From the NCBI RefSeq assembly GCF_004022265.1, contig NZ_SAVB01000002.1, positions 124,001-188,000 on the forward strand: DNA of 64,000 nt. Reading direction: 5' to 3'. The notes beneath the pieces were generated by a model. It did no database searches. It was not told where the DNA came from and saw nothing but the letters and a program-made list of their open reading frames with translations. The translations under genes and the position numbers were made by a program. Below are positions 14,841-37,693 of the stretch, piece by piece (the stretch's first letter is position 1; each line of letters begins with the position of its first letter). This DNA comes from Paenirhodobacter ferrireducens. GTDB taxonomy: Bacteria; Pseudomonadota; Alphaproteobacteria; Rhodobacterales; Rhodobacteraceae.

Positions 14841-14861
14841 CGCAGGAAAGAGGAGGGGAAA

Positions 14862-16133: not shown

Positions 16134-16193
16134 GACCGGCGGCGACCTGCGGGTCGCCCCGCCATCATCCCGAACAAGGCGAGAGGGAGACGC

Positions 16194-17626: not shown

Positions 17627-17630
<4 letters not shown>
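16194..17630 (+). CDS. glgA: Glycogen synthase (ADP-glucose type)
   Basis: A 478-residue GT5 glycosyltransferase that adds glucose from ADP-glucose to glycogen. The ADP-glucose-binding VKTGGLADVVGALP (Lys16) sits at the N-terminus, with HDWQAAL, TIHNIAFQGR and the C-terminal VPSRFEPCGLTQLYGQRYG also conserved. The ATG at 16194 follows GAGAGGGAGACGC. It lies 60 bases after glgC, the largest internal gap of the operon, and its TGA overlaps the glgX ATG. Confidence 0.97.
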
Positions 17631-21267
<3,637 letters not shown>

Positions 21268-21314
21268 GACTTAGGTCGAATAGGAAAAGCCAGACGCGCG
21301 GATAGGCTGACGCC

Positions 21315-24224: not shown

Positions 24225-24248
24225 GAGGCGGAGCTGAACCCCCGCCTC
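24225..24248. terminator. Shared hairpin between convergent apbE and xoxJ
   Basis: A seven-base-pair stem GAGGCGG/CCGCCTC with a ten-base loop lies eight bases after the apbE stop and overlaps the xoxJ stop codon. There is no T-run. It may block read-through or stabilise 3' ends of both convergent transcripts. Confidence 0.35.
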
Positions 24249-25155
24249 AACGCTCCGGTGGACGGAAATCGACGCCATAGCCGGCGAAGATCGCGGCAAT
24301 CCGGCCGTCTTCCAACCCTGCCGCCACCGCGTCATCGACCGCATAGGCGAGCGGCCGGTGCTGCAGCGAGATCGCCGCGCCGAGCGTCCATTTCGACTTC
24401 GCGAGCCCCAGCAGCGGCGGCTCATGCACCGCCAGCCCCGGCGCAAGGTTCGCATCGAGTTCCGCGCGCGGCCCCATCACCGCCATCACCTCATGCGCCG
24501 ACAGCCCGGCCATCGCCGAGGCCGTGCTCTTGTAGCGGTGAACCTTGTCGGCCGTCGCCCCATGCGCCACCGAGGTCAGGAAGAAATCCGAGATCGAGTC
24601 ATTCTCGACCCCGACCGGATCGAAGCGGAACACCGCTGGCACCGGGCCCTTCTCGGGGTAATCCGCCGTGCCATAGGCAATCGCCAGCCGCTCGACCGCA
24701 TATTGCCCGGTGAACACGACCTGATCGAAACGGCACGCGTAATCAACGTCATAGGGCACATGCAGCATGACGTCAGAGACCCGGCCGCCCACCGTCGCGC
24801 CCTTGTAGACGTAGTTCAGCAAGTCGGCGTCCAGCGTCTCGCTCGAATTCACCAGACGGATGCGCGCCTTCACCCCGAGATCGGCCGCGATCAGATTGGC
24901 AAGATCGACGTCAATGCCGCGCGGCGTGCCATCTTCCGACCAGGACCATGGGCGGAAATCGTCGTAAAGCGCGAATTCCATCCAGCCATCCGCGCGGATC
25001 TGGTCAAGCGACCGGCCGATGTCCTGCGTAAAGGTGTTTTGCAGCTTCTGGTCCGGGGCCACGCCCTTGCAGGCGGCATGGGCAAGGCCGGGCGCAAGGC
25101 CCAGCCCCCCCAGCATCACCGCCAGAACCAGAGCCCGCCGCGACAGACGCGCCAT
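24247..25155 (-). CDS. xoxJ: XoxJ/MxaJ-like periplasmic solute-binding protein (family 3) of a quinoprotein dehydrogenase
   Basis: A 302-residue exported protein (signal MARLSRRALVLAVMLGG...AHAACKG). It belongs to the family 3 solute-binding group found beside PQQ dehydrogenases (XoxJ, MxaJ, TIGR03871-like). Recognisable parts are FALYDDFRPWSWSEDGTPRGIDVDLANLIA, VSDVMLHVPYDVDYACRFDQVVFTGQYAVERLAIAY in short blocks, and the C-terminal LQHRPLAYAVDDAVAAGLEDG. XoxJ is thought to help activate or mature XoxF rather than feed an ABC transporter. It starts only three bases after the cytochrome gene, forming a two-gene operon with it, about 8 kb from xoxF itself. Confidence 0.88.
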   Translation of the reverse strand: MARLSRRALVLAVMLGGLGLAPGLAHAACKGVAPDQKLQNTFTQDIGRSLDQIRADGWMEFALYDDFRPWSWSEDGTPRGIDVDLANLIAADLGVKARIRLVNSSETLDADLLNYVYKGATVGGRVSDVMLHVPYDVDYACRFDQVVFTGQYAVERLAIAYGTADYPEKGPVPAVFRFDPVGVENDSISDFFLTSVAHGATADKVHRYKSTASAMAGLSAHEVMAVMGPRAELDANLAPGLAVHEPPLLGLAKSKWTLGAAISLQHRPLAYAVDDAVAAGLEDGRIAAIFAGYGVDFRPPER

Positions 25156-25158
25156 GGT

Positions 25159-25848
25159 TCACTCCGCCGCGGAGAGGCCGATGGTCAGCACCTCGGCGGC
25201 GTGCTTGAAGCTGGCCGGGTCCGGGGTCAGAACGGCGGCCGCGCGGCTGACCGCGCTGTCGGCCACCGGCGCACCCGATGCGGTGGCGACCTGCGCCCCG
25301 ATCTCGGTCAGCTCGGCCTTGATCGCCGCCTCGTCGCCTTCGCCCTTCATCAGCTCGTCGCGGATCGCGTGGAGCCGCGCCGAATGGGCATCCAGCGCGC
25401 CATCCTCGGGGCGGGTCTCGATATAGGTGCGGATCGCCCAGCCGGCCTTCTGTCCCAGAACCTCGCCGAAGGCCGGCATCTTGGTGGTGCCATTCTGGGT
25501 GAAGCCGTGCTGGAAGCGCTCGACGAACCATTCGTCGCCGCTCTCGTTCGCCTCGAGATAGCGCAGGTCGGGGGCCAGACCGCCCGACACGGCACCCAGA
25601 CCGTGGCAGCGCGCACAGTTCTGGTTGAAACCGGAGTCGCCGATCTGCACGGCCTTGGCCCAGACCTCTTCCCCCGCCGTCTCGGCGCGATAGGGGTTTT
25701 CGGTCAGCCAGTCTTCGCCCACCTCGGGCAGGGCATCGGTGTTCACCGGCTGCGGTGTCACGTCGCCATGCGCCCAAAGCTGCACGGGGGCGATCAGCCC
25801 GGCCATGGTCAGTGCCGCCAGCAGGCGGCGGGTGCGGACATCGAGCAT
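25159..25848 (-). CDS. Cytochrome c of the PedF / c-553i (XoxG-like) type
   Basis: A 229-residue exported cytochrome with signal MLDVRTRRLLAALTMAGLIA...LWAHG and one haem site C78-A-R-C81-H82. The NQNCARCHGLGAVSGGLAPDLRYL block and the conserved SGDEWFVERF, followed by NGTTKMPAF with the probable axial Met, match cytochromes paired with PQQ alcohol dehydrogenases (PedF, CycB c-553i). It is a likely electron acceptor of XoxF. ATG 25848 is chosen for its GGGAGGGAGAC site; the frame runs on to 25992 without protein character. Expected to be driven from the divergent promoter region with the 25959-25980 motif. Confidence 0.88.
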   Translation of the reverse strand: MLDVRTRRLLAALTMAGLIAPVQLWAHGDVTPQPVNTDALPEVGEDWLTENPYRAETAGEEVWAKAVQIGDSGFNQNCARCHGLGAVSGGLAPDLRYLEANESGDEWFVERFQHGFTQNGTTKMPAFGEVLGQKAGWAIRTYIETRPEDGALDAHSARLHAIRDELMKGEGDEAAIKAELTEIGAQVATASGAPVADSAVSRAAAVLTPDPASFKHAAEVLTIGLSAAE

Positions 25849-25958
25849 GTCTCCCTCCCTCTCGATCCTCATGTTTCCCGACATAAGCTGCGTTGCGGCA
25901 TTACGGCCATTCGACCTTCGTCGGGATCTGCGGCGAGTCTGCCTGATCCGGGCGGGGT

Positions 25959-25980
25959 GGCGTATTGGCCATTGGTCTAA
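25959..25980 (-). promoter_or_regulatory. Candidate operator 1, GACCAATG type
   Basis: Read on the minus strand it contains GACCAATGGCCAATAC, an imperfect tandem repeat of an eight-base unit. It agrees at 18 of 22 positions with the site before xoxF (33744-33765). It lies in the 205-base divergent region between the cytochrome c gene (start 25848) and the NMT1-like importer (start 26054), so it could serve both. Probable binding site of the LuxR-type regulator at 35790; inference only. Confidence 0.55.
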
Positions 25981-26053
25981 TAGGCCCCGCATGACCCGCC
26001 CCCTAGGGTGGATGGCAGAGGGCCCGCACCCTTGCGCGGGCGGGGAGGACGGA

Positions 26054-27025
26054 ATGTTTCATCGGATCGGCCGCGTCTTTGCGGCGCTGGCGCTTGGCCT
26101 TGGCCTTGGCGCCGCCCAGGCTCAGGATCTGCCGGTGCTGACGGTGGCCGCGCTTGAGGGCGGCACGGTCACCTGGGAGCTCGACACCATCCGCCATTAC
26201 GGGCTCGACCGGGCGGCGGGGTTCACCCTTGCGGTGATGCCGGTCGCGGGCAACCCCGCGGCGCAGGTGGCGCTGCAGGGCGGTGCGGCCGATGCGATCG
26301 TGACCGACTGGTTCTGGGTCGCGCGGATGCGCGCCACGGGACAGGATTACTGCTTCCTGCCCTATTCGAAGGCGGTCGGCGGGATGTTCGTGCGCGCTGA
26401 CAGCTCCGTCCGGGAAGTGACCGATCTGAAAGGGAAAAAGATCGGCATCGCGGGCGGGCCGCTGGACAAGAGCTGGCTCGTGCTGCGGGCCTGGGCACTG
26501 CAGGCGGCTGGCTTCGATCTGGCGAAGGAGACCGGGCAGGTCTTCGGCGCGCCGCCCTTGATCCTGCAGGCCGGGCTTTCGGGCGAGGTCGATGCGGCGA
26601 TCAACTTCTGGCATTTCAACGCGAAGATGCAGGCCGCGGGCATGCGGCAGCTGATCTCAGTCTCCGAGGCGGCGCAGGCGCTTGGCCTCGATCCCGAAAC
26701 GCCGCTGCTCGGCTATGTGGTCTCGGGCAAGCTGGTCGAGGAAAAGCCTGCCCTGGTGGCCGCGCTGGCGCAGGCCTCGCGCGCGGCCAAGGCGCGGCTG
26801 GCCACGGATGACGCCGCCTTCGAGCGGCTGCGGCCGCTGATGAAGGCAAAGGATGACGCGCAATACGCGGCATTGGTCGCGGGCTATCGCGCCGGCATTC
26901 CGGCACCGGGCCCGGTGGACGAGGCGGCGGCGGCGAAGATGTTCGCGCTGATGGCGGTGCTCGGCGGGGCCGATCTTGTGGGCCCGGCGACGGCGCTTCC
27001 GCCCGGCGTGTTCCTTCCGGACTGA
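26054..27025 (+). CDS. ABC transporter substrate-binding protein, NMT1/SsuA-like
   Basis: A 323-residue exported protein, signal MFHRIGRVFAALALGLGLGA with cleavage near AQA-QDLP. The fold is a type 2 periplasmic binding protein of the NMT1/THI5-SsuA group: GGTVTWELDTIRHYGLD, AAQVALQGGAADAIVTDWFW, VTDLKGKKIGIAGGPLDKSW and LQAGLSGEVDAAINFWHFNAKM. Relatives bind aliphatic sulfonates, taurine, nitrate, thiamine precursors or other small organics. It starts a three-gene importer operon with a GGGGAGGAC site. Its position beside the xoxJ-cytochrome operon and the shared divergent region suggest a task linked to alcohol oxidation, ligand unknown. Confidence 0.88.
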   Translation: MFHRIGRVFAALALGLGLGAAQAQDLPVLTVAALEGGTVTWELDTIRHYGLDRAAGFTLAVMPVAGNPAAQVALQGGAADAIVTDWFWVARMRATGQDYCFLPYSKAVGGMFVRADSSVREVTDLKGKKIGIAGGPLDKSWLVLRAWALQAAGFDLAKETGQVFGAPPLILQAGLSGEVDAAINFWHFNAKMQAAGMRQLISVSEAAQALGLDPETPLLGYVVSGKLVEEKPALVAALAQASRAAKARLATDDAAFERLRPLMKAKDDAQYAALVAGYRAGIPAPGPVDEAAAAKMFALMAVLGGADLVGPATALPPGVFLPD

Positions 27026-27029
27026 GCCG

Positions 27030-27845
27030 ATGAGCAGCGTCGCACGGACAGGGCTTGCCCAGACGGCGCGCAAGGGGGCGGCGCCGAAACCGCCTTCACT
27101 GCGCGGCATGTTCCGTGCGCTGATCTCGCTCGCCGTTCTGGTGCTGCTCTGGGCCGGGCTGTCGGCGCTCCTCGCCGATCCGCTGCGCGCGCCCGGGCCG
27201 CAACAGGTGCTGCCGGCGCTCTTTCAGGGGGTCGTCTCGGGCGAGATCCTCCTCGATCTGTCCGCCACGCTGCGCCGCGTCGGGCTGAGCTTTGTGCTCG
27301 CCATGGCGACGGGGACGGCGGCGGGGATCGTGCTGGGCCTGATGCCGCGGCTCGACCGCTGGCTCGATCCGTGGCTCACCGTCTTCAACACCATTCCGGC
27401 GCTGGTCACGATCGTGCTGTGCTACCTCTGGATCGGGCTGAACGAGAGCGCGGCGATCGCCGCCGTGGCGCTGAACAAGGTGCCGCTCGTCACCCTGATG
27501 CTGCGCGAGGGGGTGCGGGTGCTCGACCCCGACCTTGCCGCGATGGCGCAGGTCTACCGGATGGGGCCGCTCGCGCGGTTGCGCCACATCGTGCTGCCGC
27601 AGCTGGCGCCGCATCTGGTGTCGGCGGCGCGCGCGGGGCTGGCGCTGATCTGGAAGATCGTGCTGGTGGTCGAGTTCCTGGGACGCTCGGACGGCATCGG
27701 ATTCCGCCTTCACCTCGATTTCCAGATGTTTGATATCACAGGGGTTCTGGCGAATGCTCTGGCCTTCGTCGCGGTCATGCTGGCGCTCGAGGCGCTGCTG
27801 ATCGCGCCGCTCGCGGCGCGCGCCGCAAGATGGAGGACGCAATGA
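27030..27845 (+). CDS. ABC transporter permease, SsuC/TauC-like
   Basis: A 271-residue inner-membrane permease (BPD_transp_1). The typical order is visible: first helix around LISLAVLVLLWAGLSALL, then LSATLRRVGLSFVLAMATGTAAGIVLGL, the EAA loop region around AAMAQVYRMGPLARLRHIVLPQLAPHLVSAARAG and a C-terminal helix LANALAFVAVMLALEALL. It starts five bases after the binding-protein stop and its TGA overlaps the ATPase start. Four to six membrane helices are expected. Partner of the two neighbours in one importer. Confidence 0.92.
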   Translation: MSSVARTGLAQTARKGAAPKPPSLRGMFRALISLAVLVLLWAGLSALLADPLRAPGPQQVLPALFQGVVSGEILLDLSATLRRVGLSFVLAMATGTAAGIVLGLMPRLDRWLDPWLTVFNTIPALVTIVLCYLWIGLNESAAIAAVALNKVPLVTLMLREGVRVLDPDLAAMAQVYRMGPLARLRHIVLPQLAPHLVSAARAGLALIWKIVLVVEFLGRSDGIGFRLHLDFQMFDITGVLANALAFVAVMLALEALLIAPLAARAARWRTQ

Positions 27846-28462
27846 TCGCCCTCGATCTGACCGCGAAAAGTTTCGGCGCGACCCAGGTGCTCGGCCCGAT
27901 GCGGCTGCGCGTCGAACCGGGCGAGGTGCTGGGTATCTCGGGCCCTTCGGGGGCTGGCAAAAGTACGTTGCTGCGCATCCTCGCGGGCATCGACCGCCGG
28001 TTCGAGGGCATGCTCGACGCACCGGGCCGCCGCGCCATGGTGTTCCAGAGCCCGACGCTGATGCCCTGGCGACGGGTGATCGACAATGTCACGATCCCGA
28101 CCGGCGCCACGACAGCCGAGGCCGCCGAGATTCTCGCCCGCGTCGGCCTTGCAGGGCTGGAGCGGCGCTGGCCCGGGCAGCTCTCGCTCGGTCAGGCACG
28201 GCGGGTGGGGATTGCGCGCGCCTTCGTCGGGCGGCCGGACTTGCTGATCCTCGACGAGCCCTTCGCCTCGCTCGATGCCGAGCGGATCGAGGATCTGCTT
28301 GCCCTCACCGCCGCGCTGATCGCCGAGACCCGGCCGGCGGTGGTGCTGGCGTCGCACGCCGAGCACGAACTTGCGACGCTTGCCACCCGCCGCGCGCGGC
28401 TGGACGGCCGGCCGGCGCGGCTGATCGAGGCTCAGCGCGAGCGGGTGCGGGCGGGCTCGTAA
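27842..28462 (+). CDS. ABC transporter ATP-binding protein, SsuB/TauB-like (short)
   Basis: A 206-residue ATPase for the NMT1-like importer. Walker [11 protein letters not shown]-loop MVFQSPTLMPWRRVIDN, signature in the altered form LSLGQARRVGIARA (LSGGQ is LSLGQ), and Walker B LLILDEPFASLD are present. ATG 27842 overlaps the permease stop and follows GGAGG; ATG 27830 is an alternative. It is about 40 residues shorter than SsuB. Its last 31 bases overlap the end of the convergent permease gene, an unusual tail-to-tail overlap. Confidence 0.9.
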   Translation: MIALDLTAKSFGATQVLGPMRLRVEPGEVLGISGPSGAGKSTLLRILAGIDRRFEGMLDAPGRRAMVFQSPTLMPWRRVIDNVTIPTGATTAEAAEILARVGLAGLERRWPGQLSLGQARRVGIARAFVGRPDLLILDEPFASLDAERIEDLLALTAALIAETRPAVVLASHAEHELATLATRRARLDGRPARLIEAQRERVRAGS

Positions 28463-29211
28463 CCCAGGAGCGCCAGCCCGAAGAAGAGCGCGAAGGCCAG
28501 CACCGTCCAGCCAAGCGCGGCAAGGTTCATCTGGCCGTAAAGCGCAAAGCGCACAAGCTCGACCGCATGGGTGAAAGGGTTGATTTCGCAAAGGGTTGCA
28601 AGGAGAGGTGAGCTTTCCTGCATCTTCCACAGCGGATAGAGCGCGGTTGACAGGAAGAACATCGGGAAGATCACGAAATTCATCACCCCGGCGAAGTTCT
28701 CAAGCTGGCGGATACGGGCCGAGAGGAACAGCCCGAGCGCGCCCAGCATGATCCCGGCCAGCGCCAGCGCGGGCAGCGCGGCAAGGTATCCTATGAGGCT
28801 GAACTTCAGCCCGTAGCCCCATGCGATCACAAGAAAAATAGCCACTTGCAGCAGCCCGACCATGGCCCCGGCCAGCAATTTCGCGCCGAGCAGGAACCAG
28901 CGCGGCCAGGGCGCCGTCAGCATCAGCCGCATCGTGCCGCTTTCGCGATCGTTCACCAGAGACAGCGAGCTCTGCATCCCGGAAAACAGCAAGATCATCC
29001 CGCAAAGCCCTGGAACGATGTAGGTCTCATAGCTGATATAGGTCTTGTAGGGCGGGATGATCGACAGACCGAGTGCCGCCCGGAACCCCGCGGCGAAGAC
29101 GAAAAGCCAGACCAGCGGTCGCACCAGCGCGGCGAAGAAACGCTCGCGCTGCGTGACGAAGCGGGCAAGCTCGCGGGTGATGATGGCGCGGGCGGCGATC
29201 AGGGCCTTCAT
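28432..29211 (-). CDS. ABC-2 type permease of a PQQ-dehydrogenase-associated ABC system (PedC/LutF-like)
   Basis: A 259-residue membrane protein. RPLVWLFVFAAGFRAAL, YIVPGLCGMILLFSGMQSSLSLVNDRESGTMRLMLTAP in short blocks, and VIFPMFFLSTALYPLWKM are the ABC-2 membrane family core, with about six helices. This permease type is the partner of the ATPase encoded just upstream; their genes overlap by ATGA. From memory, homologues (pedC of Pseudomonas putida, lutF of Methylorubrum) lie in clusters needed for growth with scarce lanthanides. ABC-2 folds usually export, so the direction and cargo of transport are unclear. Last gene of a five-gene operon. Confidence 0.88.
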   Translation of the reverse strand: MKALIAARAIITRELARFVTQRERFFAALVRPLVWLFVFAAGFRAALGLSIIPPYKTYISYETYIVPGLCGMILLFSGMQSSLSLVNDRESGTMRLMLTAPWPRWFLLGAKLLAGAMVGLLQVAIFLVIAWGYGLKFSLIGYLAALPALALAGIMLGALGLFLSARIRQLENFAGVMNFVIFPMFFLSTALYPLWKMQESSPLLATLCEINPFTHAVELVRFALYGQMNLAALGWTVLAFALFFGLALLGYEPARTRSR

Positions 29212-29927
29212 GCGGCGGCTCCGGTCCGGGTGAGGAACCACTCGGCCAAGGGGGTCGCGCCGGTGACGGCATCGACCCGCCCGGCAGCGGCAACGCGGCC
29301 CTGATGCAAGAGCACGAGGTCATCGTCCGGGTGCAGCTCGTCCACCAGATGCGTCGCCCAGAGCACCGAGATCCCCTCGGCGGTCAGCGCATGGACATGG
29401 GCGGTGATCGCGGCGCGGGCCGGGGCGTCAAGGCCGACCGTCGGCTCATCCAGCAGCAGGAGCCGCGGCGCATGGATCAGCGCGCGGGCGATCTCCATCC
29501 GCCGCCGATGCCCGCCGTTCAGTGCCGCGACCTTCTCGCCGGCGCGCTCCTCCATGCCCAGCCGGGCCAGCGAAGCCGCGATCCGATCGCGCGCCATCGC
29601 TCCGGAAAGCCCCTGCAAGGCTGCGAAATACTTGAGATTTGCGAAAACGGAGCGGTCGAGGTCATAGGTCGGCGCCTGATAGACCACACCGATCCGGGCC
29701 AGCGCCGCACGCGGGCTGCGGCCAAGATCGTGGCCGCCCACGCTGACGACGCCGGGGGCCGGGCGGATCAGCCCGGTCAGCACCGCCATCAGCGTCGACT
29801 TGCCCGCGCCATTGGGGCCGAGGAGCGCGCAGAACCGCCCCTCGGGCACGGCGAAGGACACGTCGCGCAGCGCCGGCTTGCGGCCCCAGTCGTGGCTCAG
29901 CCCGGCGACGCGCAACGCTTCAGTCAA
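29208..29927 (-). CDS. ABC transporter ATP-binding protein of the PQQ-associated system (PedB/LutE-like)
   Basis: A 239-residue ATPase with Walker A GPNGAGKST, Q-loop GVVYQAPTYDLDRSVFANLKYFAAL, an altered signature LNGGHRRRMEIARAL (in place of LSGGQ) and Walker B LLLLDEPTVGLD. QAPTYDLDRSV and LNGGHRRR are features I associate with the PQQ_ABC_ATP group. The start is TTG at 29927: it has GGAG seven bases upstream and overlaps the stop of the preceding gene by eight bases. No ATG or GTG lies nearby in frame. Its own stop overlaps the permease start. Confidence 0.88.
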   Translation of the reverse strand: MTEALRVAGLSHDWGRKPALRDVSFAVPEGRFCALLGPNGAGKSTLMAVLTGLIRPAPGVVSVGGHDLGRSPRAALARIGVVYQAPTYDLDRSVFANLKYFAALQGLSGAMARDRIAASLARLGMEERAGEKVAALNGGHRRRMEIARALIHAPRLLLLDEPTVGLDAPARAAITAHVHALTAEGISVLWATHLVDELHPDDDLVLLHQGRVAAAGRVDAVTGATPLAEWFLTRTGAAA

Positions 29928-30366
29928 TGGTGATCTCCAGCCGCTGCTCGGCGCCGGTGGAGCCGGGAATGGCCAGGCTGTAGCGCCCGGGCTTCACCGC
30001 GACGAAGCCGATCTCCATCGTGCCGGCGCGGTCGAACTCGATGGAATGCAGGCCCATCGGGCGGATCTCCAGCCCCTTGATGACGACCTCGTCGACCCAG
30101 ATCGCGCGGAAGAAGTCGGCACCGGAAAGGCCAATTTCGCCAGAGCCATCGGCGGTGATCTTCACCTCGTAGTAATGGCCCGACTTGAGCGCCCAGGGCC
30201 CGCCGAGCGGTTCGCCCACGGAGAGGATCACCTCGGGCAGGTCGGACTTGTTCGGGCCGGCGAGCAGGCCCGCCGGCGGCGCGGCATCGTCGTCATCGTC
30301 CTCGGCGAGCGCGGGATGGGCAATCGCAAGACTCAGGCAGCACATCAGGAAAGCAATGGAACGCAT
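29920..30366 (-). CDS. Small exported protein with an Asp-rich mature N-terminus
   Basis: A 148-residue secreted protein I cannot name. The signal MRSIAFLMCCLSLAIAHPALA is followed at once by EDDDDDAAPP, five Asp in a row. The rest is predicted beta-rich (YYEVKITADGSGEIGLSG, FFRAIWVDEVVIKGLEIRPM, MEIGFVAVKPGRYSLAI), resembling a cupredoxin-like or immunoglobulin-like sandwich. No Cys is left in the mature protein. It sits between the YVTN protein and the ABC ATPase in one operon, so a periplasmic accessory role, possibly metal binding, fits. Homologous clusters contain similar small exported proteins of unknown role (LutB/LutD/LutG class). Confidence 0.75.
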   Translation of the reverse strand: MRSIAFLMCCLSLAIAHPALAEDDDDDAAPPAGLLAGPNKSDLPEVILSVGEPLGGPWALKSGHYYEVKITADGSGEIGLSGADFFRAIWVDEVVIKGLEIRPMGLHSIEFDRAGTMEIGFVAVKPGRYSLAIPGSTGAEQRLEITID

Positions 30367-30383
30367 TGAAATACCTTTCTTCG

Positions 30384-31343
30384 TCAGGGAGTCGGGCGCG
30401 CGGCGGCGCCCCAGGGGAAGCGGCCGACCTTGATCGTCGCCACGGGCTCGAGGCTTGCCACGTCGATCACCGTCACGTCGCCCGAAACGCCGTTGGTGGT
30501 GAAGAGCCTGGTCTGGTCGGGCGAGAACGCCATGTGCCAGACGCGGCGGCCGACGAGGATGTAGCGCTCGACCTTGAGCGTCTTCGCATCGACCACGGCG
30601 ATGTGGTTTGCCGGGCCGAGCGCGACGAAGACCTTCGTCGCGTCGGGCGAGAAGAGCATCCCCACCGGCTGGATCTTTTCGGCCCGCACTCCCTTGATCG
30701 CGAAGGAGATCTTGCCTTTCTCGACCTGCGTCGCGGCGTCGAGCACCGCGACCGTGCCGCCGATTTCCGAACTCACCCAAAGCTCGGATCCGTCGGGGCT
30801 GAACTCGGCGTGGCGGGGGCGGCTGTCGACAAGGGAATTCGCAATGATTTTGTGGGTTTGCGTGTCGATCCAATGGGCCATGTTGGTGGTTTCCGAGGTC
30901 GTCACCTGGACCTTGCCATCGGGAGAAATCCCCATGCCCTCGGGCTCGACGCCCACGTCGATCTGCGCCACCACCTTGCGGGTCTGGGTGTCGACCACCG
31001 TCGTGACCGCGTCATTCTCGTTCGCGATGTAGAGAAGCCGGTCATCGGGGGCGAGGACGAACTGCTCGGGGTCGTCGCCCGAGGGCAGGTCGTGCAGGAC
31101 CTTGCCGGTGTCGGGGTCGATCACCTGCACAGCGTTGCTGTCCGACGCGCAGACGTAGAGATACTTGAAATCCTTGGAAAAGGTGATGCCACGGGGGCGT
31201 TCGCCGATGGCGTAGGTCGCCTTCACCGTCAGCGTGTCGACGTCGATCACGCTCAGCGTATCGTCCATCTCGTTCGTCACCCAGATCTCGTCGGCGAGGG
31301 CCGGCGAGGCGAGCAGAGTGGTGAGCAACAAGGTCCGGATCAT
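30384..31343 (-). CDS. YVTN beta-propeller protein of the PQQ-associated ABC system
   Basis: A 319-residue exported beta-propeller (signal MIRTLLLTTLLASPALA). About seven repeats are visible, each with the pattern xVxVIDxxTxKVxxxI...GxxPxGxxFSPDG, such as DTLSVIDVDTLTVKATYAIGE and VAVLDAATQVEKGKI. This is the PQQ_ABC_repeats type (TIGR03866-like), restricted to PQQ alcohol dehydrogenase clusters. Function is unproven; ligand or partner binding in the periplasm is likely. The start overlaps the stop of the upstream binding-protein gene by ATGA. Second gene of the operon. Confidence 0.88.
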   Translation of the reverse strand: MIRTLLLTTLLASPALADEIWVTNEMDDTLSVIDVDTLTVKATYAIGERPRGITFSKDFKYLYVCASDSNAVQVIDPDTGKVLHDLPSGDDPEQFVLAPDDRLLYIANENDAVTTVVDTQTRKVVAQIDVGVEPEGMGISPDGKVQVTTSETTNMAHWIDTQTHKIIANSLVDSRPRHAEFSPDGSELWVSSEIGGTVAVLDAATQVEKGKISFAIKGVRAEKIQPVGMLFSPDATKVFVALGPANHIAVVDAKTLKVERYILVGRRVWHMAFSPDQTRLFTTNGVSGDVTVIDVASLEPVATIKVGRFPWGAAARPTP

Positions 31344-32515
31344 TTCGCGCCTCCGAAGGCAGTGCATTGGGTTTCGGGCCGGTCGGGGCCGAGGGTGTCG
31401 AGCTCGTTGGTGGCATGCAGGAAGCCCTCGAACGGGGCCTGCGCCACCACCGCGCGTTCGGTGACGATCGGGATCGGCTGGCGCAACTGGCCGTCCCAGT
31501 CGCGAAAGCCGAGCGGGCGACCGAGGAAACCGCCGATGCGGGCCTTGTCTGACAGGAGATAGCTGCGCAGCGTGGCGGCATCGGTGGCCCTGGTGCGCGT
31601 CGCGGCCTCGCCGATCGCGGCGACGGCGACCCAGGCAGCATAGTCGTCGGCACGCATCTCGCGCCCCGAAAGGTCGCGAAAACGGTTTTGCAGCTGCGCG
31701 GCGCCATTCTGTTCGACCACGCCCGACCAGCCGACGGGCTTTGCGCCCTCGGAGCCCGCCAGCGGGCGCGGCAGCCAAGTGTTATAGGCGACATAGCGGG
31801 CGAAATCGCCGGGCTCGTCGGCCACCAGCAGCAGGTCGTGCTCGGGCAGGTCCTGGGTGAAGAGCGGCACCTCGGCGGCGGCGGCGCGGCGCATGTTGGC
31901 GTCGAAAACCCAGGTCTTCTCGGCGGCGAGCGACAGGCCGAATTTCGTCAGTGACGCCCGCAGCGCGGCGGCATAGGCACGGTCCTCGGGCAGCGTGCCC
32001 TCGATCATCGCCAGATACGTCCAGCGCTTCGTCACGATGAACTGCGCCAGCGCATCGGCGCGCATCGCATAGGAGGGCAGGGTGTGCAGCACATTCGCCC
32101 GGCAATCGATGCCGCGCAACGCCTCGTCGGGCGCCTCGGTGTTGAAGATCAGGGCGCCCTGCGCCTCGGGCAGATCGGCCAGCGCCAGCAGATCGGCCGC
32201 GGGGGCACGCACGACCAGAACCCGCGCGCCGTCGGCCAGCGCCGCCTTTGCGGCGGGCAGGAAGTCTGCCTCGGGCGGCACCACAGTCTCGACCAGACGA
32301 TAGTCCTGCCCGGTGAATTTGCCGGTCGTGGCGATGTCGGCCAGCGACAGCCGCGCACCGTCGAGGCCAAGCGTCGCGGGCTCGGCCTGCATGTTCGACA
32401 GCACCGGCGGTGGCACCACCTGCCGCTCGAGCCAGTCGATCCGCAGCATCTCTGCCTGCGCGCCGGTCGCGCCCGCAAGCCCGCCGGCCAGCACTCCTGC
32501 CAGCATCCGTTTCAT
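31340..32515 (-). CDS. PQQ-associated ABC system substrate-binding protein (PQQ_ABC_bind type)
   Basis: A 391-residue exported protein (signal MKRMLAGVLAGGLAGATGAQA) distantly related to LivK-type binding proteins. Blocks such as GQDYRLVETVVPPEADF, GALIFNTEAPDEALRG, LHTLPSYAMRADALAQFIVTKRW and LPRPLAGSEGAKPVGWSG match the group found only beside PQQ alcohol dehydrogenases (TIGR03863-like, PedA/LutA neighbourhood). ATG 32515 follows GGGAGGACGTG. It heads the five-gene operon binding protein-YVTN-Asp-rich protein-ATPase-permease. The ligand could be a lanthanide complex, PQQ-related molecule or signal; not determinable here. Confidence 0.87.
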   Translation of the reverse strand: MKRMLAGVLAGGLAGATGAQAEMLRIDWLERQVVPPPVLSNMQAEPATLGLDGARLSLADIATTGKFTGQDYRLVETVVPPEADFLPAAKAALADGARVLVVRAPAADLLALADLPEAQGALIFNTEAPDEALRGIDCRANVLHTLPSYAMRADALAQFIVTKRWTYLAMIEGTLPEDRAYAAALRASLTKFGLSLAAEKTWVFDANMRRAAAAEVPLFTQDLPEHDLLLVADEPGDFARYVAYNTWLPRPLAGSEGAKPVGWSGVVEQNGAAQLQNRFRDLSGREMRADDYAAWVAVAAIGEAATRTRATDAATLRSYLLSDKARIGGFLGRPLGFRDWDGQLRQPIPIVTERAVVAQAPFEGFLHATNELDTLGPDRPETQCTAFGGAK

Positions 32516-32565
32516 CACGTCCTCCCTCGGGCCAAGGTGGTCGGCCGGGTCGCGCCGCCGCAATA

Positions 32566-32583
32566 CGACCAATGTCTAGGTCG
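32566..32583. promoter_or_regulatory. Candidate operator 2, palindromic GACC site
   Basis: CGACC-AATGTCTA-GGTCG is a perfect five-base inverted repeat with eight bases between, and its left half extends to the GACCAATG core shared with the other sites. It lies between the divergent binding-protein gene (start 32515) and the Sel1 gene (start 32628), 51 and 45 bases away, suited to controlling both. Inference. Confidence 0.5.
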
Positions 32584-32627
32584 GGCGCCGCCCCGCGCGC
32601 GCTAGGCTGGGGGCGGGAGGACACGCG

Positions 32628-33164
32628 ATGAAGACATGGATGCTGGCTGCGATCACCTCGGCGCTGGCGCTGCCGGGCTTCGCCGAGGAACCCGGCGGCG
32701 ATCTCAATCCCGAGGAGCTGACGATCGAGCGGGTGCTGCGCGACGTCGGCCGGGGCGAGACCTCGATGACCAATTGCGCGACCGGCTATTTCATCACCAA
32801 GTCGGGCCGCCATGTCGAGGCGCGCGGCCTGTTCGAGCGCTGCGCCGCGGATGGCTGGACCGGGGCGATGACCTGGATGAGCCAGCTTGACGACAACGGG
32901 CTTGGCGGGCCGCTCGATCCGCAGGCGGCGGCCGAGTGGGACCGGCAGGCGGCCGAGGCGGGCGACCCGGTCGGCGCCTTCAACTTCGGGCTCGACCTGA
33001 TGCGCGGGCGCGGCGTGGCGCGCGACGCGGCGCGGGGCAGGGCGATGGTCGACCGCGCCGCCGAGGCCGGGCTACCGGTCGCCCGCCGGCTGCAGGGCGC
33101 GGATTATGACCTCGATGAGGTGACCCCCGACGCGGACAACTGGAAATATGCGCCGCTGTCGTGA
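32628..33164 (+). CDS. Exported Sel1-repeat protein
   Basis: A 178-residue protein with a signal peptide (MKTWMLAAITSALALPGFA) and two or three Sel1-like helical repeats over about residues 60-155, for example ARGLFERCAADGWTGAMTWMSQL and AAEAGDPVGAFNFGLDLMRGRG. Such repeats mediate protein contacts. It is divergent from the PQQ-associated operon and precedes the cytochrome c gene by 100 bases, so it belongs to the island. Two Cys (in MTNCATGYF and ERCAADG) could form a disulfide. Partner unknown. Confidence 0.82.
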   Translation: MKTWMLAAITSALALPGFAEEPGGDLNPEELTIERVLRDVGRGETSMTNCATGYFITKSGRHVEARGLFERCAADGWTGAMTWMSQLDDNGLGGPLDPQAAAEWDRQAAEAGDPVGAFNFGLDLMRGRGVARDAARGRAMVDRAAEAGLPVARRLQGADYDLDEVTPDADNWKYAPLS

Positions 33165-33170
33165 GAACCG

Positions 33171-33186
33171 CGACCAAAGTCGCATG
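33171..33186 (+). promoter_or_regulatory. Candidate operator 3, GACCAAAG core
   Basis: CGACCAAAGTCGCATG lies seven bases after the Sel1 stop and about 85 bases before the cytochrome c start (33265). The eight-base core GACCAAAG matches the site before the LuxR-type regulator gene exactly; the second half is not conserved. It is the weakest of the five sites. Confidence 0.35.
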
Positions 33187-33264
33187 ACGGGTTTGACCTG
33201 CATCAAGCCCGCCGGCGGCCTCCCGGACCTAACCTTCCCCCAGCTCAGACACAGGAGAAAGCGC

Positions 33265-33660
33265 ATGTTCCCCAAAGCCTTCGGCGCCGCAGTGGCGCTG
33301 TGCCTCGCGGCCCTTGGCGGGGCCGCCACGGCGGCCGACACCACCGACGCGGTGAAGATCGCCGCCGGCAAGGCCTATTTCGACAGCACCTGCCACCGCT
33401 GTCACTCGGTCGATGCCGACAAGAAGAGCTATGGACCGCTGCTCGATGGCGTGGTCGGCCGCCGCGCCGGCACCTTCCCGGGCTATCCCTATTCCGAGGC
33501 GCTGCAGAAGGCGGGCTTCGTCTGGACGCCCGGCGCGCTGCGCGCCTGGATGGAGGCAAACGACAAGTTCGTGCCGGGGACCAAGATGCGCCATGTCGGC
33601 ATCGAGGATCCGACGGTGCAGGATTTCATTGTCACCTACCTCGCAAGTCTCAAGAAATAA
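33265..33660 (+). CDS. Cytochrome c, class I (c2/c550-like)
   Basis: A 131-residue exported monohaem cytochrome. Signal MFPKAFGAAVALCLAALGGAATA, haem site C43-H-R-C46-H47, and probable axial Met108 in FVPGTKMRH. The layout, with KSYGPLLDGVVGRRAGTFPGY after the haem motif, is that of mitochondrial-type c2/c550. ACAGGAGAAAG precedes the ATG. It lies directly upstream of xoxF with a strong terminator between them, so it is a separate transcript. It is a plausible carrier from XoxF or its cytochrome to the terminal oxidase. Confidence 0.92.
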   Translation: MFPKAFGAAVALCLAALGGAATAADTTDAVKIAAGKAYFDSTCHRCHSVDADKKSYGPLLDGVVGRRAGTFPGYPYSEALQKAGFVWTPGALRAWMEANDKFVPGTKMRHVGIEDPTVQDFIVTYLASLKK

Positions 33661-33679
33661 AGGATCTTTCCTGAACTCA

Positions 33680-33715
33680 GGGGCGTGTGCGGACCTCCGC
33701 GCGCGCCCCTTTTTT
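33680..33715 (+). terminator. Strong rho-independent terminator after cytochrome c
   Basis: A 13-base-pair stem (33680-33692 with 33697-33709, two G-U pairs) closed by ACCT and followed by six T. It lies 20 bases after the cytochrome stop and isolates this gene from xoxF. Confidence 0.92.
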
Positions 33716-33743
33716 CATGCCCGGATGCCGCACCGCAGGGTCG

Positions 33744-33765
33744 TAAGACCAATGGACAATATACC
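33744..33765 (+). promoter_or_regulatory. Candidate operator 4, before xoxF
   Basis: Contains GACCAATGGACAATAT, two imperfect eight-base repeats (GACCAATG, GACAATAT). It matches the 25959-25980 site at 18 of 22 positions. It lies about 100 bases before the xoxF ATG and just after the cytochrome terminator, where an activator of xoxF would be expected to bind. Inference. Confidence 0.58.
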
Positions 33766-33865
33766 TCTCGCGCCGCTCACCGATACTTGAACCCGAGTCC
33801 GCCCCCGGTGCGCAGTGCCCGGCCGGCGGGCAGGGAGTGATCGGGAGATCGGGAGGACGACTGCG

Positions 33866-35635
33866 ATGAACCGTTTTGTTCTGGCCACGGTGCTGGCCAT
33901 CACCTGTCTCGGCACGGCGGCCACGGCCGGTGTGACCGAGGAGGACCTGCTGAAGGATCAGGAAAGCACCGAGAACGTGCTGACCAACGGGATGGGGCGC
34001 AACCTGCAGCGCTACAGCCCGCTCGAGATCCTGAACAAGGGCAACGTCAAGAACCTGGTGCCGGCCTGGGCGTTCTCGCTGGGGGGCGAGAAGCAGCGCG
34101 GTCAGGAAAGCCAGCCGCTCGTCTATGACGGGATGATGTACATCACCGGCTCGTATTCGCGCATGTATGCGATCGACCTGAAGACCGGCAAGGAAGTCTG
34201 GCAATATGACGCCCGCCTGCCCGAGGGCATCCTGCCGTGCTGCGACGTCATCAACCGCGGCGCGGCGATCTTCGGCGACAACATCTATTTCGGCACGCTC
34301 GACGCGCGCATCCTCGCGCTCGACCTGAAGACCGGCAAGGTCAAGTGGAACAAGAAGATCGCCGATTACAAGGAGGGATACTCCTACACCGCGGCGCCGC
34401 TGATCGTGAACGGGCTCGTCGTCACCGGCAACTCGGGCGGCGAATTCGGCATCGTCGGCGAGGTGCAGGCGCGTGACGCCGAAACCGGCGAGCTGGTCTG
34501 GACCCGGCCGATGATCGAAGGCAACATGGGCACCTACATGGGCAAGGAAAGCACCATGACGGGCACGCTCAACGCGACCTGGCCGGGCGACATGTGGAAG
34601 ACCGGCGGCGGCGCGACCTGGCTGGGCGGCTCCTATGATGCCGACACCGACACGCTGATCTTCGGCGCGGGCAACCCGGCGCCCTGGAACAGCCACCTGC
34701 GCAACGCCGGCACGCCCGTCGAGGGCAACAAGGGCGACAACCTCTATGCCGCCAGCCGCGTCGGCATCGACCCGAAGACCGGCGAGATCAAGTGGCACTT
34801 CCAGACCACGCCGCGCGAGGGCTGGGACTTCGACGGCGTGAACGAGGTTGTGGGCTTCGTCGACAAGGACGGCAACAAGCGCTATGCCACCGCCGACCGC
34901 AACGGCTTCTTCTATGTTCTGAACCGCGAGGACGGCAAGTTCGTCTCGGCCCATCCCTTCGTGAAGGAGATCAACTGGGCCAAGGGCATCGATGAGAACG
35001 GCCGGCCGATCTACAACGAGGAAAATCGCCCCGGCGCCCCCGATGCCGCGGCCGAAGGCGGCAAGGGCCAGCAGGTCTTCGCCGTGCCCTCGTTCCTTGG
35101 CGGCAAGAACTGGATGCCGATGGCCTACAACCAGAAGACCGGTCTGTTCTACGTGCCGTCGAACGAATGGGGCATGGATATCTGGAACGAGCCGATCAGC
35201 TACAAGAAGGGCGCGGCCTATCTGGGCGCGGGCTTCACCATCAAGCCGCTGTTCGAGGATTACATCGGCTCGCTGAAGGCGATGGACCCGAACACCGGCG
35301 AGGTGAAGTGGGAATACAAGAACTCGGCCCCGCTCTGGGGGGGCGTGATGTCGACGGCGGGTGGCCTCGTCTTCACCGGCAACCCCGAGGGTGAGTTCCT
35401 CGCCTTCGACGCCGACACCGGCGAGAAGCTGTGGTCGTTCCAGACCGGCTCGGGCATCGTCGGCCAGCCGATCACCTGGGAACAGGACGGCGAACAGTAT
35501 GTCTCGGTCATGTCGGGCTGGGGGGGTGCGGTGCCGCTCTGGGGCGGCGAGGTCGCGAAGAAGGTGAACTATCTGAACCAGGGCGGCATGGTCTGGACCT
35601 TCAAGCTGCCGAAGCAGCTCGCCTCGGCGAACTGA
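33866..35635 (+). CDS. xoxF: Lanthanide-type PQQ-dependent methanol/ethanol dehydrogenase XoxF
   Basis: A 589-residue periplasmic quinoprotein that oxidises methanol and other alcohols. Signal peptide [21 protein letters not shown]; eight-bladed propeller with repeated W-docking motifs (AxDxxTGxxxW). Adjacent Cys125-Cys126 form the vicinal disulfide over PQQ. The catalytic Asp321 is followed by Asp323 in GWDFDGVNE; the second Asp is the extra ligand that marks lanthanide-dependent enzymes, whereas calcium MxaF has Ala there. No mxaI small subunit gene is near, as expected for XoxF. GGGAGGACGACTGCG precedes the ATG. Electrons probably pass to one of the two nearby cytochromes c. I have not excluded ethanol or other alcohols as the main substrate. 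Confidence 0.95.
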
Positions 35636-35657
35636 TCGTCACGAGTGGCCTTGGTCG

Positions 35658-35684
35658 GGGCGCGGGGGAAACCTCGCGCCCTTT
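35658..35684 (+). terminator. Hairpin after xoxF
   Basis: A ten-base-pair stem GGGCGCGGGG/CCTCGCGCCC (one G-U) with a GAAA tetraloop, followed by TTT, 22 bases after the xoxF stop. It fits a terminator or 3'-end stabiliser for an abundant mRNA; the T-run is short. Confidence 0.65.
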
Positions 35685-35698
35685 CGCGTGCCGGGCGC

Positions 35699-35720
35699 TC
35701 CGACCAAAGGACAGTATGGC
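35699..35720 (+). promoter_or_regulatory. Candidate operator 5, before the response-regulator gene
   Basis: Contains GACCAAAGGACAGTAT, differing from the xoxF site at two of sixteen positions. It lies 70 bases before the start of the LuxR-type regulator (35790). If that regulator binds it, the gene is autoregulated. Inference. Confidence 0.55.
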
Positions 35721-35789
35721 GTGCGGGCGGGGCTTGCTAGGGTGGAGACAAGCCCGCAAGATCGGGAAAGAAGACGACAGGATCGCAAG

Positions 35790-36500
35790 ATGACCCATTC
35801 CGCCACAGCCCCTCATCGCGGTGATTTCCGCTCGGCGCTGATCGTCGACGACCATCCGCTGTTTTGCGACGCGCTCGGCATGACGCTGCAGGCGGTGGCG
35901 GGGATCGGGGAGATCGCCCAGGCCGACCGGCTGTCAGTGGCGCTCGAGCGGATCGAGGGGCAGGGGCCGCGCCCCGATGTCATCGTGCTCGACCTCAACC
36001 TGCCCGACGTGAACGGTCTGGAGGGGCTGATGAGCCTGCGCGCGGCGGCGCCCGATCTGCCGATCGTCGTCGTCTCCTCGGTCGACGAGCCGCGGGTGAT
36101 CCGCGCGGCGATCCTCGCCGGTGCGGCGGGCTTCGTGCCCAAGCATTCGAAGCGCGAGCTCTTTCGCGCGGCCTTTGCCGCGATCGCACGCGGCGAGACC
36201 TTCGTCCCTGAAAGCAGCGGCGAGACGCTGGCCGAGGGCAACGGCATGACGCCGCAGGACGAGGCGATCCGCCGGCTTAGCGCGCTCACCCGGCAGCAGG
36301 CGAACATCCTCGAGCAGATCTGCGCCGGCAAGATGAACAAGCAGATCGCTTATGACCTGTCGATCGCCGAGACCACGGTGAAGGCTCATGTCACCGCGAT
36401 CATGCGCAAGCTCGGCGTCTACAGCCGCACCCAGGCGGTGCTGCTGGCACGCGAGGCGCAGACCACCGGGGCATTGCCCGGAAGCTGGCAGTCGCGCTAG
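35790..36500 (+). CDS. LuxR/NarL-family response regulator (FlhR/AgmR-like)
   Basis: A 236-residue two-component regulator. The receiver (about residues 14-130) has the acidic pocket VDDH and phosphoacceptor Asp68 in VLDLNLPDVNG; the NarL-type HTH (about 165-230) has LTRQQANILEQICAGKMNKQIAYDLSIAETTVKAHVTAIMRKL in pieces. It follows xoxF and precedes a FIST protein and a hybrid kinase in one direction. FlhR of Paracoccus and AgmR/ExaE-type regulators control PQQ alcohol dehydrogenase genes, so control of this island is the natural reading. ATG 35790 has only a weak site (AAGACGACAGG). Confidence 0.9.
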   Translation: MTHSATAPHRGDFRSALIVDDHPLFCDALGMTLQAVAGIGEIAQADRLSVALERIEGQGPRPDVIVLDLNLPDVNGLEGLMSLRAAAPDLPIVVVSSVDEPRVIRAAILAGAAGFVPKHSKRELFRAAFAAIARGETFVPESSGETLAEGNGMTPQDEAIRRLSALTRQQANILEQICAGKMNKQIAYDLSIAETTVKAHVTAIMRKLGVYSRTQAVLLAREAQTTGALPGSWQSR

Positions 36501-36520: not shown

Positions 36521-37693
36521 ATGCCAGAACAACCGAACGCCCGTGCCGGCGCGCCGGGGCCCTTGCCGTGCCCGGTGTCCGCCTCGGCCCCCGCCGGGGC
36601 CGAGAACCTGATCGCGCGTCTCGCCTGCGGCCTTGGCCCCGGGCCCTTCGCGCAGATCTTCCTGTTCGCCAGCCCCGCGGCCGATCTGGGTGCCCTGTGC
36701 GCTGAGGTCGAGGCGGCCTTTCCCCGCGCCCTTGTCTGCGGCTGCACCACGGCGGGCGAGCTGACCGGGGCGGGATATGACGAGGGACAGGTGGTGGCCT
36801 TCGCGCTGCCGCAGGCAGGGTTCGAGGTCGAGATGCTGCTGATCGAACACCTCGACAGGCTCGACCCGAAGGCGCTGATCGGTGAGGTGCTGCGCGCCCG
36901 TCAGGGGCTGGGCCGGCGTGCGGGCGCGGCGATCCACGAATTCGCCGTGCTGCTTGTCGACGGGCTCTCGGGCGAGGAAGACCGGCTGGTGGCACAGCTG
37001 TCGGGCGCCCTTGGTGCGGTGCCGATCGTCGGCGGTTCGGCGGGCGATGGCGGCGACTTCCGCCGCACCGAGATCTGCGCGCGGGGCAGGGTGCTTGGCA
37101 ATGCCGCAGTGCTCAGCCTGGTGCGCTCGTCCTGCGCGGTGCAGCCGTTCTCGCTCGATCACCTGCAGCCGACCGGGCGGCGGATGGTGGTGACCGGCGC
37201 CGATCCGGCGCGCCGCGTCGTCACCCGGATCAACGACGAGCCCGCGGCGCGGGAATACGCGCGCCTGCTGGGCCTTGCGCCCGAACAGCTGTCGCCCTTC
37301 GTCTTCGCCTCGCACCCGGTGCTGGTGCGGGCGGGCGGGCGCCACCATGTGCGCGCGATCCAGTCGGTGGGCCCCGACGGCGCGCTGATCTTCTTTGCTG
37401 CGATCGCCGAGGGGCTGGTGCTGACGCTCGCCGAGCCCACCGACATCGCCGAGCACCTCGACCGCGAGCTGGCGGCGCTGGCCCGCGACGGCGCGCCCTC
37501 GGCGATCCTCGGCTTCGACTGCATCTTCCGCCGGATCGAGGCGACGGCGCGGCAGCGGGTGCGGGCGGTCTCGGAAACGCTCGCGCGGCACCATGTCACC
37601 GGCTTCTCGACCTATGGCGAACAGATCGGCGCAATGCATGTGAACCAGACGATGACCGGCCTCGCCTTCTTCCCGCCCGGAGAGCGGCGATGA
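36521..37693 (+). CDS. FIST-domain signal sensor protein
   Basis: A 390-residue cytoplasmic protein with FIST_N (about residues 45-240; FPRALVCGCTTAGELTGAGYDEG, VPIVGGSAGDGGDF) and FIST_C (about 245-375; DEPAAREYARLLG, GFSTYGEQIGAMHVNQTMTGLAFF). FIST domains are thought to bind small ligands such as amino acids and often accompany kinases. It lies between the response regulator (20-base gap) and the hybrid kinase (ATGA overlap), so the three probably form one signalling path. No membrane segment. Ligand unknown. Confidence 0.9.
   Translation: MPEQPNARAGAPGPLPCPVSASAPAGAENLIARLACGLGPGPFAQIFLFASPAADLGALCAEVEAAFPRALVCGCTTAGELTGAGYDEGQVVAFALPQAGFEVEMLLIEHLDRLDPKALIGEVLRARQGLGRRAGAAIHEFAVLLVDGLSGEEDRLVAQLSGALGAVPIVGGSAGDGGDFRRTEICARGRVLGNAAVLSLVRSSCAVQPFSLDHLQPTGRRMVVTGADPARRVVTRINDEPAAREYARLLGLAPEQLSPFVFASHPVLVRAGGRHHVRAIQSVGPDGALIFFAAIAEGLVLTLAEPTDIAEHLDRELAALARDGAPSAILGFDCIFRRIEATARQRVRAVSETLARHHVTGFSTYGEQIGAMHVNQTMTGLAFFPPGERR

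Follow-up and report, generated by a model that had tools for sequence, protein, structure and literature searches.

A conserved, promoter-phased element before lanthanide-type methanol oxidation genes of Paenirhodobacter ferrireducens is a probable operator of the FlhS-FlhR two-component system

Published work, in the passages drawn on here, describes FlhRS, AfdRS and AgmR as activators of one-carbon (C1) genes or of alcohol oxidation genes linked to pyrroloquinoline quinone (PQQ), and gives glutathione (GSH)-formaldehyde dehydrogenase as a target of FlhR/AfdR. A literature search limited to open-licence papers found, in the passages seen, no operator for FlhR, AfdR or AgmR. We analysed a stretch of 64,000 nucleotides from Paenirhodobacter ferrireducens (contig NZ_SAVB01000002.1, positions 124,001 to 188,000; hereafter the window), which contains a XoxF island with PQQ-ABC genes, as indicated by matches to TIGR03075, TIGR04494, TIGR03863 and TIGR03866, all above cut-off. 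A regulator, a middle gene and a hybrid kinase follow each other in this island in an order that agrees with flhR-orf2-flhS and afdR-T-S. The DNA signal shared by the promoters of these lanthanide-type methanol oxidation genes is real and is conserved in many related bacteria, where its spacing to the promoter is constant. We consider it probable (roughly 0.8) that this element is an activator operator, presumably of class II, for the FlhS-FlhR two-component system of the island, a system of the FlhR/AfdR/AgmR type.

Related loci were fetched with FlhR (35790-36500) as the query, the best 80 of at least 492 relatives being used, and their genes were placed by tblastn with 16 island proteins. 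A lack of conservation in orthologous promoters had been named beforehand as refuting the proposal, and the element was recovered there de novo: 38 xoxF upstream regions, from which the window and the near-identical locus L021 were excluded, were given to a Gibbs search that forces one site in each, and it returned TACGACCAWWGNNCAATWY, the same element as in the window. Its 24-base motif window begins 94-139 base pairs (bp) before the xoxF start codon, with a poor match in L047. Across 33 xoxF promoters (less than 70% identical after thinning, matrix score of at least 18 bits), conservation reached 1.43 bits per column in the operator and 0.72 in the -10 region, compared to 0.13 upstream, 0.14 in the spacer and 0.13 downstream; selecting promoters by score inflates the operator value and leaves the difference between spacer and -10 region unaffected. 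The corresponding values for 36 flhR promoters with a site were 1.01 (operator), 0.33 (-10 region), 0.10 (upstream), 0.13 (spacer) and 0.17 (downstream). The operator and the -10-like hexamer are the only conserved blocks of the xoxF promoters.

Across the 80 related loci and a 20-kb part of the window, a matrix made from the xoxF sites found 104 sites above 16 bits, compared to 2.4 with column-permuted matrices. The 41 sites before xoxF are circular, because xoxF is the training gene of the matrix; 59 stand in front of coxG, a NosR-like gene or a further island gene at a distance of up to 200 bp, and 4 lie elsewhere. Over the same sequences the extended 16-mer GACCAAWGGMCARTAY has 14 exact and 8 one-mismatch occurrences, and its reversed control has none at 0 or 1 mismatch. 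Same-strand sites of at least 9 bits, counted with the window and L021, precede xoxF in 39 of 41 upstream regions, pedF in 31/36, pedA1 in 23/41, sel1 in 10/32 and the importer gene in 4/21; for cytochrome c the count is 8/19, the site of the window not among them. The Paracoccus loci L028 and L087 have the operator before xoxF. Second operator-like sites were seen 130-155 bp before xoxF in L047 (7917), L093 (7942), L053 (7883) and L058 (7929), those of the last three also being 54-64 bp before the divergent importer gene.

The best -10-like hexamer of the xoxF promoters, mostly NATAMT, starts at +35 to +37 counted from the G of GACC in 38/39 (window and L021 included); in the exception, L092, another hexamer scores equally, yet GATACT stands at +36. 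All 16 coxG promoters with a site have TAnnnT at +35 to +37, and of the 41 flhR promoters with a site, 24 have NAnnnT at +36 and 9 have it at +37. The pedA1 promoters peak likewise at +35 to +37 (20 counts, 23 promoters), and the pedF promoters show a faint peak (9 counts, 31 promoters). Taking the hexamer as the -10 box would put the operator at about -51 to -33, where a class II activator sits in place of the usual -35, which suggests a class II arrangement.

Within the window the putative operators, numbered 1 to 6, and their -10-like hexamers are as follows.

21263-21282: operator 6, TATTCGACCTAAGTCTCAGG as read on the minus strand, before the NosR-like gene
21303-21308: -10-like TAGGCT, downstream of operator 6 and before the NosR-like gene
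25936-25941, minus strand: -10-like CAGACT, at +36 from the G of GACC in operator 1
25962-25980, minus strand: operator 1, TTAGACCAATGGCCAATAC, oriented to pedF-xoxJ, with the divergent importer gene at 26054
32562-32581: operator 2, AATACGACCAATGTCTAGGT, near-palindromic, between the divergent pedA1 and sel1-like genes
32603-32608, plus strand: -10-like TAGGCT, on the sel1 side of operator 2
33167-33186, plus strand: operator 3, ACCGCGACCAAAGTCGCATG, before cytochrome c
33193-33206, plus strand: FNR-like box TTGACCTGCATCAA, immediately 3' of operator 3
33744-33762, plus strand: operator 4, TAAGACCAATGGACAATAT, before xoxF
33782-33787, plus strand: -10-like GATACT, at +35 from operator 4
35699-35717, plus strand: operator 5, TCCGACCAAAGGACAGTAT, before flhR
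35738-35743, plus strand: -10-like TAGGGT, at +36 from operator 5

NAnnnT thus lies at +35 or +36 for xoxF, flhR, sel1, pedF and the NosR-like gene (the last counted by hand), that is, for 5 of the 6 sites; cytochrome c has no -10-like hexamer at +36 from operator 3.

The original prediction had proposed, from the core GACCAAWG, an operator before five transcription units. The five cores are all present (25970-25977 on the minus strand; 32567-32574, 33172-33179, 33747-33754 and 35702-35709 on the plus strand), 1 to 11 bases away from the positions first quoted, and the five units stand; their number does not, a sixth site before the NosR-like gene having been overlooked. The left edge was also placed too far in, the Gibbs search and column conservation showing that the motif reaches further upstream (TAC/TAA) than GACCAAWG. 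As had been anticipated, the core alone also occurs by chance and the extended form carries the argument. The core is found 7 times in the window compared to 2.5 expected, 3 of 100 shuffles also get to 7, and the additional copies lie at 11622 and, on the minus strand within the importer gene, at 26871; the eight-base core by itself is weak evidence. The exact 16-mer occurs three times in the 4.07-Mb genome, every time inside this 10-kb island (25962-25977 on the minus strand, 33747-33762 and 35702-35717 on the plus strand), and the 18/22 agreement reported for the first and fourth sites (TTAGACCAATGGCCAATACGCC and TAAGACCAATGGACAATATACC) was reproduced by hand count.

Genome-wide, the 16-mer has no match with one mismatch and 10 with two. 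Its frequency had been expected to exceed chance with a link to alcohol oxidation genes; this holds for the exact copies, confined to the island, and fails for loose ones, with 103 matches at up to three mismatches compared to 101 for the reversed control. Relaxed-pattern matches (that count, and two others of 44 against 44 and 34 against 58 for the reversed control) were therefore dropped as further sites. Matches with two or three mismatches being no commoner than the control, only the exact copies stand out, and the case is built on them and on conservation. A matrix trained on relatives only gave 26.2 bits for the pedF site, 23.7 for sel1/pedA1, 22.6 for xoxF, 20.6 for the NosR-like gene, 15.2 for cytochrome c and 13.1 for flhR; with 200 column-permuted matrices the window maximum was 18.0 bits at the 95th percentile and 21.7 at the highest. 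Given its weak score, the flhR site leans on the exact 16-mer and on its position, and the cytochrome c site, for which the xoxF-only matrix gives at most 4 bits, leans on the orthologous promoters.

The site is 18-19 bp long and reads TA(C/A)GACC-WW-G..CAATW at xoxF and similar to TTCGACC-WW-GGTCGAA where symmetric. A 7-2-7 inverted repeat is the best fit, with half-to-half matches, out of 7, of 4.5 at pedF, 4.5 at pedA1, 4.4 at sel1, 3.3 at cytochrome c and 3.2 at xoxF, and of 4.6 at 18 hand-listed sites outside the window's family; these averages are given without a p-value, the groups overlapping (pedF and pedA1 often share an intergenic region) and the sites being related by descent. The tandem eight-base repeat originally proposed survives at the flhR promoters, where a direct repeat at lag 8 is best (3.26 compared to 2.41 for 7-2-7 inverted), and as a general geometry it is ruled out by the 7-2-7 fit everywhere else, including pedF, pedA1, sel1 and the out-of-family sites. 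The general design is a NarL-like 7-2-7 inverted repeat, with the flhR promoters preferring a tandem octamer.

A NarL/LuxR-type regulator is encoded in the island, as had been predicted. It carries PF00072 and PF00196 above cut-off and aligns with DevR and NarL; its assignment to the FlhR type rests on the receiver and LuxR/GerE domains, common to all NarL-type regulators, and on gene order. A PedF search across the phylum (299 genomes, 31 above cut-off) supplied 22 pedF promoters from beyond the window's family (18 of them belonging to other classes, 4 to the same class) for a second de novo search. It returned TACTACCAAGGGACTAGA, TAGTACCAAAGCACAATG and similar sequences, close to TACGACCAA, with a score of 296 compared to 194-198 in four shuffled sets, which were run with fewer restarts. 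Among genomes from outside the family, pedF has a near-identical element, TACTACCAAGG, in front of it in 16/18 with an FlhR-like protein and in 0/5 without one (Fisher p = 0.0006). This test used E ≤ 1e-30 for FlhR-like proteins and p ≤ 0.02 for sites, each family was excluded from its own matrix, locus L257 was added, and the threshold was fixed before those scores, yet after the de novo search and region scan. Regions of up to 20 kb from 30 genomes gave, at 18 bits, a site in 21/25 with and 0/5 without an FlhR-like protein, a comparison with some circularity, since part of those regions had served to train the matrix.

NarL contacts DNA through Lys188, Val189 and Lys192 (numbering by hand count, the chain assumed to lack Met1). 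The helix position aligned with Lys192 is Thr in 81/81 regulators of the first set; among out-of-family regulators of at least 37% identity from the fetched regions it is Ser in 10/11 and Thr in L319. Strict covariation of Thr or Ser with G or T in the half-site was rejected, being broken by L318 (Ser with TACGACC) and by L306 and L311 (mixed sites), and a relation of this residue to half-site specificity is a lead that the alignment hints at.

In the proposed mechanism, FlhS, perhaps together with the FIST/NosP-like protein, would feed the signal to FlhR, and a phosphorylated FlhR dimer would bind the 7-2-7 half-sites as NarL does. The right half-site, which is degenerate, would lie over the -35 region, where the regulator could touch RNA polymerase. 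FlhR would then activate XoxF, its cytochromes, the PQQ-ABC genes, the NosR-like/ApbE pair and pqqA elsewhere in the genome, as well as its own gene (positive autoregulation).

The genes of the island are the following.

21315-23363, plus strand: NosR-like membrane protein (NosR model 431.6 bits, under the 1000-bit cut-off; Fer4_5 above cut-off)
23360-24217: ApbE-family gene, directly after the NosR-like gene (ApbE above cut-off)
24247-25155, minus strand: periplasmic binding protein (SBP_bac_3), which we take from its gene context to be XoxJ-like
25159-25848, minus strand: cytochrome c-550 of the PedF family (TIGR04494, 193.7 bits, cut-off 122)
28432-32515, minus strand: PQQ-ABC genes pedC, pedB, a small protein, pedA2 (beta-propeller) and pedA1 (binding protein), with TIGR03863 and TIGR03866 above cut-off and Ped names assigned by analogy with the published ped cluster
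32628-33164, plus strand: Sel1-repeat-like protein, under the Pfam cut-off
33265-33660, plus strand: cytochrome c (profile matches)
33866-35635, plus strand: xoxF, a PQQ methanol/ethanol-family dehydrogenase (TIGR03075, 778.9 bits, cut-off 480), the XoxF label within the family following the original prediction and gene context
35790-36500, plus strand: FlhR/AfdR/AgmR-type response regulator (PF00072, 77 bits; PF00196, 72.3 bits)
36521-37693, plus strand: FIST/NosP-like protein in the orf2/afdT position (NosP 352 bits, cut-off 450; FIST domains above cut-off)
37690-39924, plus strand: FlhS-like hybrid sensor kinase with PAS domains (profile matches)

Units with a site are thus pedF-xoxJ, PQQ-ABC/Sel1, cytochrome c, xoxF, flhR and the NosR-like gene with ApbE. 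A motif-like stretch, TTTTCGACCTATGGCGAACA and variants, at 37604 near the end of the NosP-like gene, found in many loci about 50-100 bp before flhS and inside coding sequence, is probably conserved coding sequence.

NosR-like orthologues in L028 and L044 (71% and 59% identical; 2 of 10 related loci with a NosR-like match were inspected) are also preceded by the site, the site region of L044 sitting between the NosR-like gene and a divergent pqqA. Before pqqA, elsewhere in this genome, a site starts 95 bp ahead of the ATG (p = 0.007 compared to shuffles). PqqB scored above cut-off in 15 genomes of the family sample; a pqqA gene could be identified in 10 of these, and 6/10, this genome included, have a site at p ≤ 0.01; the pqqA sites of L097 and L044 are positive as well, both preselected for showing a site and L097 repeating one of the six. 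coxG was matched in 27 of the 80 related loci, and in the 16 noted for a site (L061 at 14165-18491, L090, L039, L048, L035, L049, L096, L032, L055, L051, L033, L042, L095, L030, L083 and L063) it lies 68-75 bp before the start. In 13 of the 16 the flhR operon is nearby and the stretch examined contains no xoxF. In L061, coxG is followed by genes for the iron-sulphur, molybdenum-binding and flavin adenine dinucleotide subunits of a molybdenum hydroxylase; the subunits most resemble those of glyceraldehyde or carbon monoxide dehydrogenase, and all score under cut-off. L099 has one site before a gene that reads like an aldehyde dehydrogenase. TTGAN6TCAA is present upstream of cytochrome c in 15/19 cases (the window and L021 among those counted) compared to 0/41 xoxF upstream regions, and the FNR-like box between operator 3 and cytochrome c suggests a second, oxygen- or nitric oxide-linked control.

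Several observations weigh against an FlhR operator. Only 41/81 flhR upstream regions (window and L021 included) have a same-strand site of at least 9 bits, and the cytochrome c and flhR sites of the window are not significant by matrix score alone, the latter scoring about the same as the coding-sequence match at 37604 (13.2 bits). Neither this genome's own pqqA site nor the pedA1 side of operator 2 has a hexamer at +36. Counted by family, the out-of-family link is 6/7 compared to 0/3 (p = 0.03), the genomes being related and the 16/18 and 0/5 not independent. Within the family, the broad pattern does not separate genomes with FlhR (8/20) from those without (10/41; p = 0.24); a stricter pattern, picked post hoc, gives 7/20 compared to 1/41 (p = 0.001). 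A link to PQQ, xoxF and formaldehyde genes had been foreseen; xoxF, PQQ and alcohol oxidation genes bear it out, and the formaldehyde gene examined, GSH-formaldehyde dehydrogenase, does not, with a site at p ≤ 0.01 in 0/30 promoters (that of this genome and 29 others) and nothing above 6 bits in this genome's 12-kb stretch around it, on which its control through the site was rejected. Nor was xoxF found stated as an FlhR target in the review passages seen.

Three other explanations were weighed. The sites could be real operators of a different regulator that shares the fold, for instance a NarL-type protein (PedR2/ExaE-type or other) from elsewhere in the genome, flhR being a mere fellow target; candidate relatives are numerous in such genomes (68 at first look in G000, unverified) and ped clusters, in the passages seen, carry two LuxR-type regulators. 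We consider this unlikely, as this genome has one FlhR homologue only at E ≤ 1e-60, outside the family the site goes with the presence of an FlhR-like protein, and flhR loci with no xoxF in view have it at coxG. The rigid 35-37 bp phasing to the hexamer would also fit part of an alternative sigma factor promoter; a dyad-symmetric 18-19 bp element with symmetric copies between divergent genes speaks against that, as do CAATWY, which at about 19-21 bp from the -10 is too far away for a usual -35, and the cytochrome c promoters, where the element mostly precedes the FNR-like box instead, so that this account is very improbable. Chance similarity or general conservation of promoter regions could explain a core only about threefold over expectation in the window, and hardly deserves belief beside unconserved flanks and spacer (0.13-0.14 bits per column), 16-mers confined to the island and de novo recovery in relatives. 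Binding of FlhR to the operators is the explanation that we infer.

A broader reading, which we favour by a modest degree, is that one ancestral FlhR/AgmR-type operator-regulator pair runs periplasmic PQQ- and lanthanide-linked alcohol oxidation throughout the phylum. The architecture would have been kept while the half-site changed from TACGACC in the window's family to mostly TACTACC in further families and classes, together with Thr or Ser in the residue aligned with NarL Lys192, and the regulon would reach the NosR-like/ApbE genes and, in some relatives, the CoxG/molybdenum hydroxylase operon. FlhR, AfdR and AgmR are known through genetics; an operator of defined sequence and constant promoter spacing would make the direct regulon readable from sequence, predict new members (NosR-like/ApbE, coxG and pqqA) and make the switch-on of lanthanide-type methanol oxidation precisely testable.

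NarL-type operators resemble the element in having two inverted 7-bp half-sites with 2 bp between them. The element differs in its strong asymmetry at xoxF and flhR promoters, and its half-site sequence is not that of the NarL consensus. Compared to known systems, as far as the passages seen describe them, FlhSR of Paracoccus denitrificans and AfdRTS/RfdRTS of Rhodobacter sphaeroides likewise have regulator, middle gene (orf2/afdT) and hybrid kinase in one operon and control C1 oxidation genes; they differ in targeting GSH-formaldehyde dehydrogenase, whose 30 promoters lack the site here. AgmR/ErbR (PedR1) of the Pseudomonas ped/exa cluster is, like the island regulator, a LuxR-type activator beside NosP and NahK/PedS1; its targets are PQQ dehydrogenases and the pqq operon, and PedA1A2BC lie in the cluster, as in the island. 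The Pseudomonas-type NCBIfam models all score under cut-off here (ErdR 154.8, cut-off 390; NahK 395.8, 1500; near_NosP_CTERM 344.8, 400; NosP 352, 450), and out-of-family sites are mostly TACTACC or TAGTACC, compared to TACGACC here. FlhR, AfdR and AgmR are already known as regulators; what is added is a NarL-type operator with its regulon, its fixed phasing, its wide persistence and new candidate targets.

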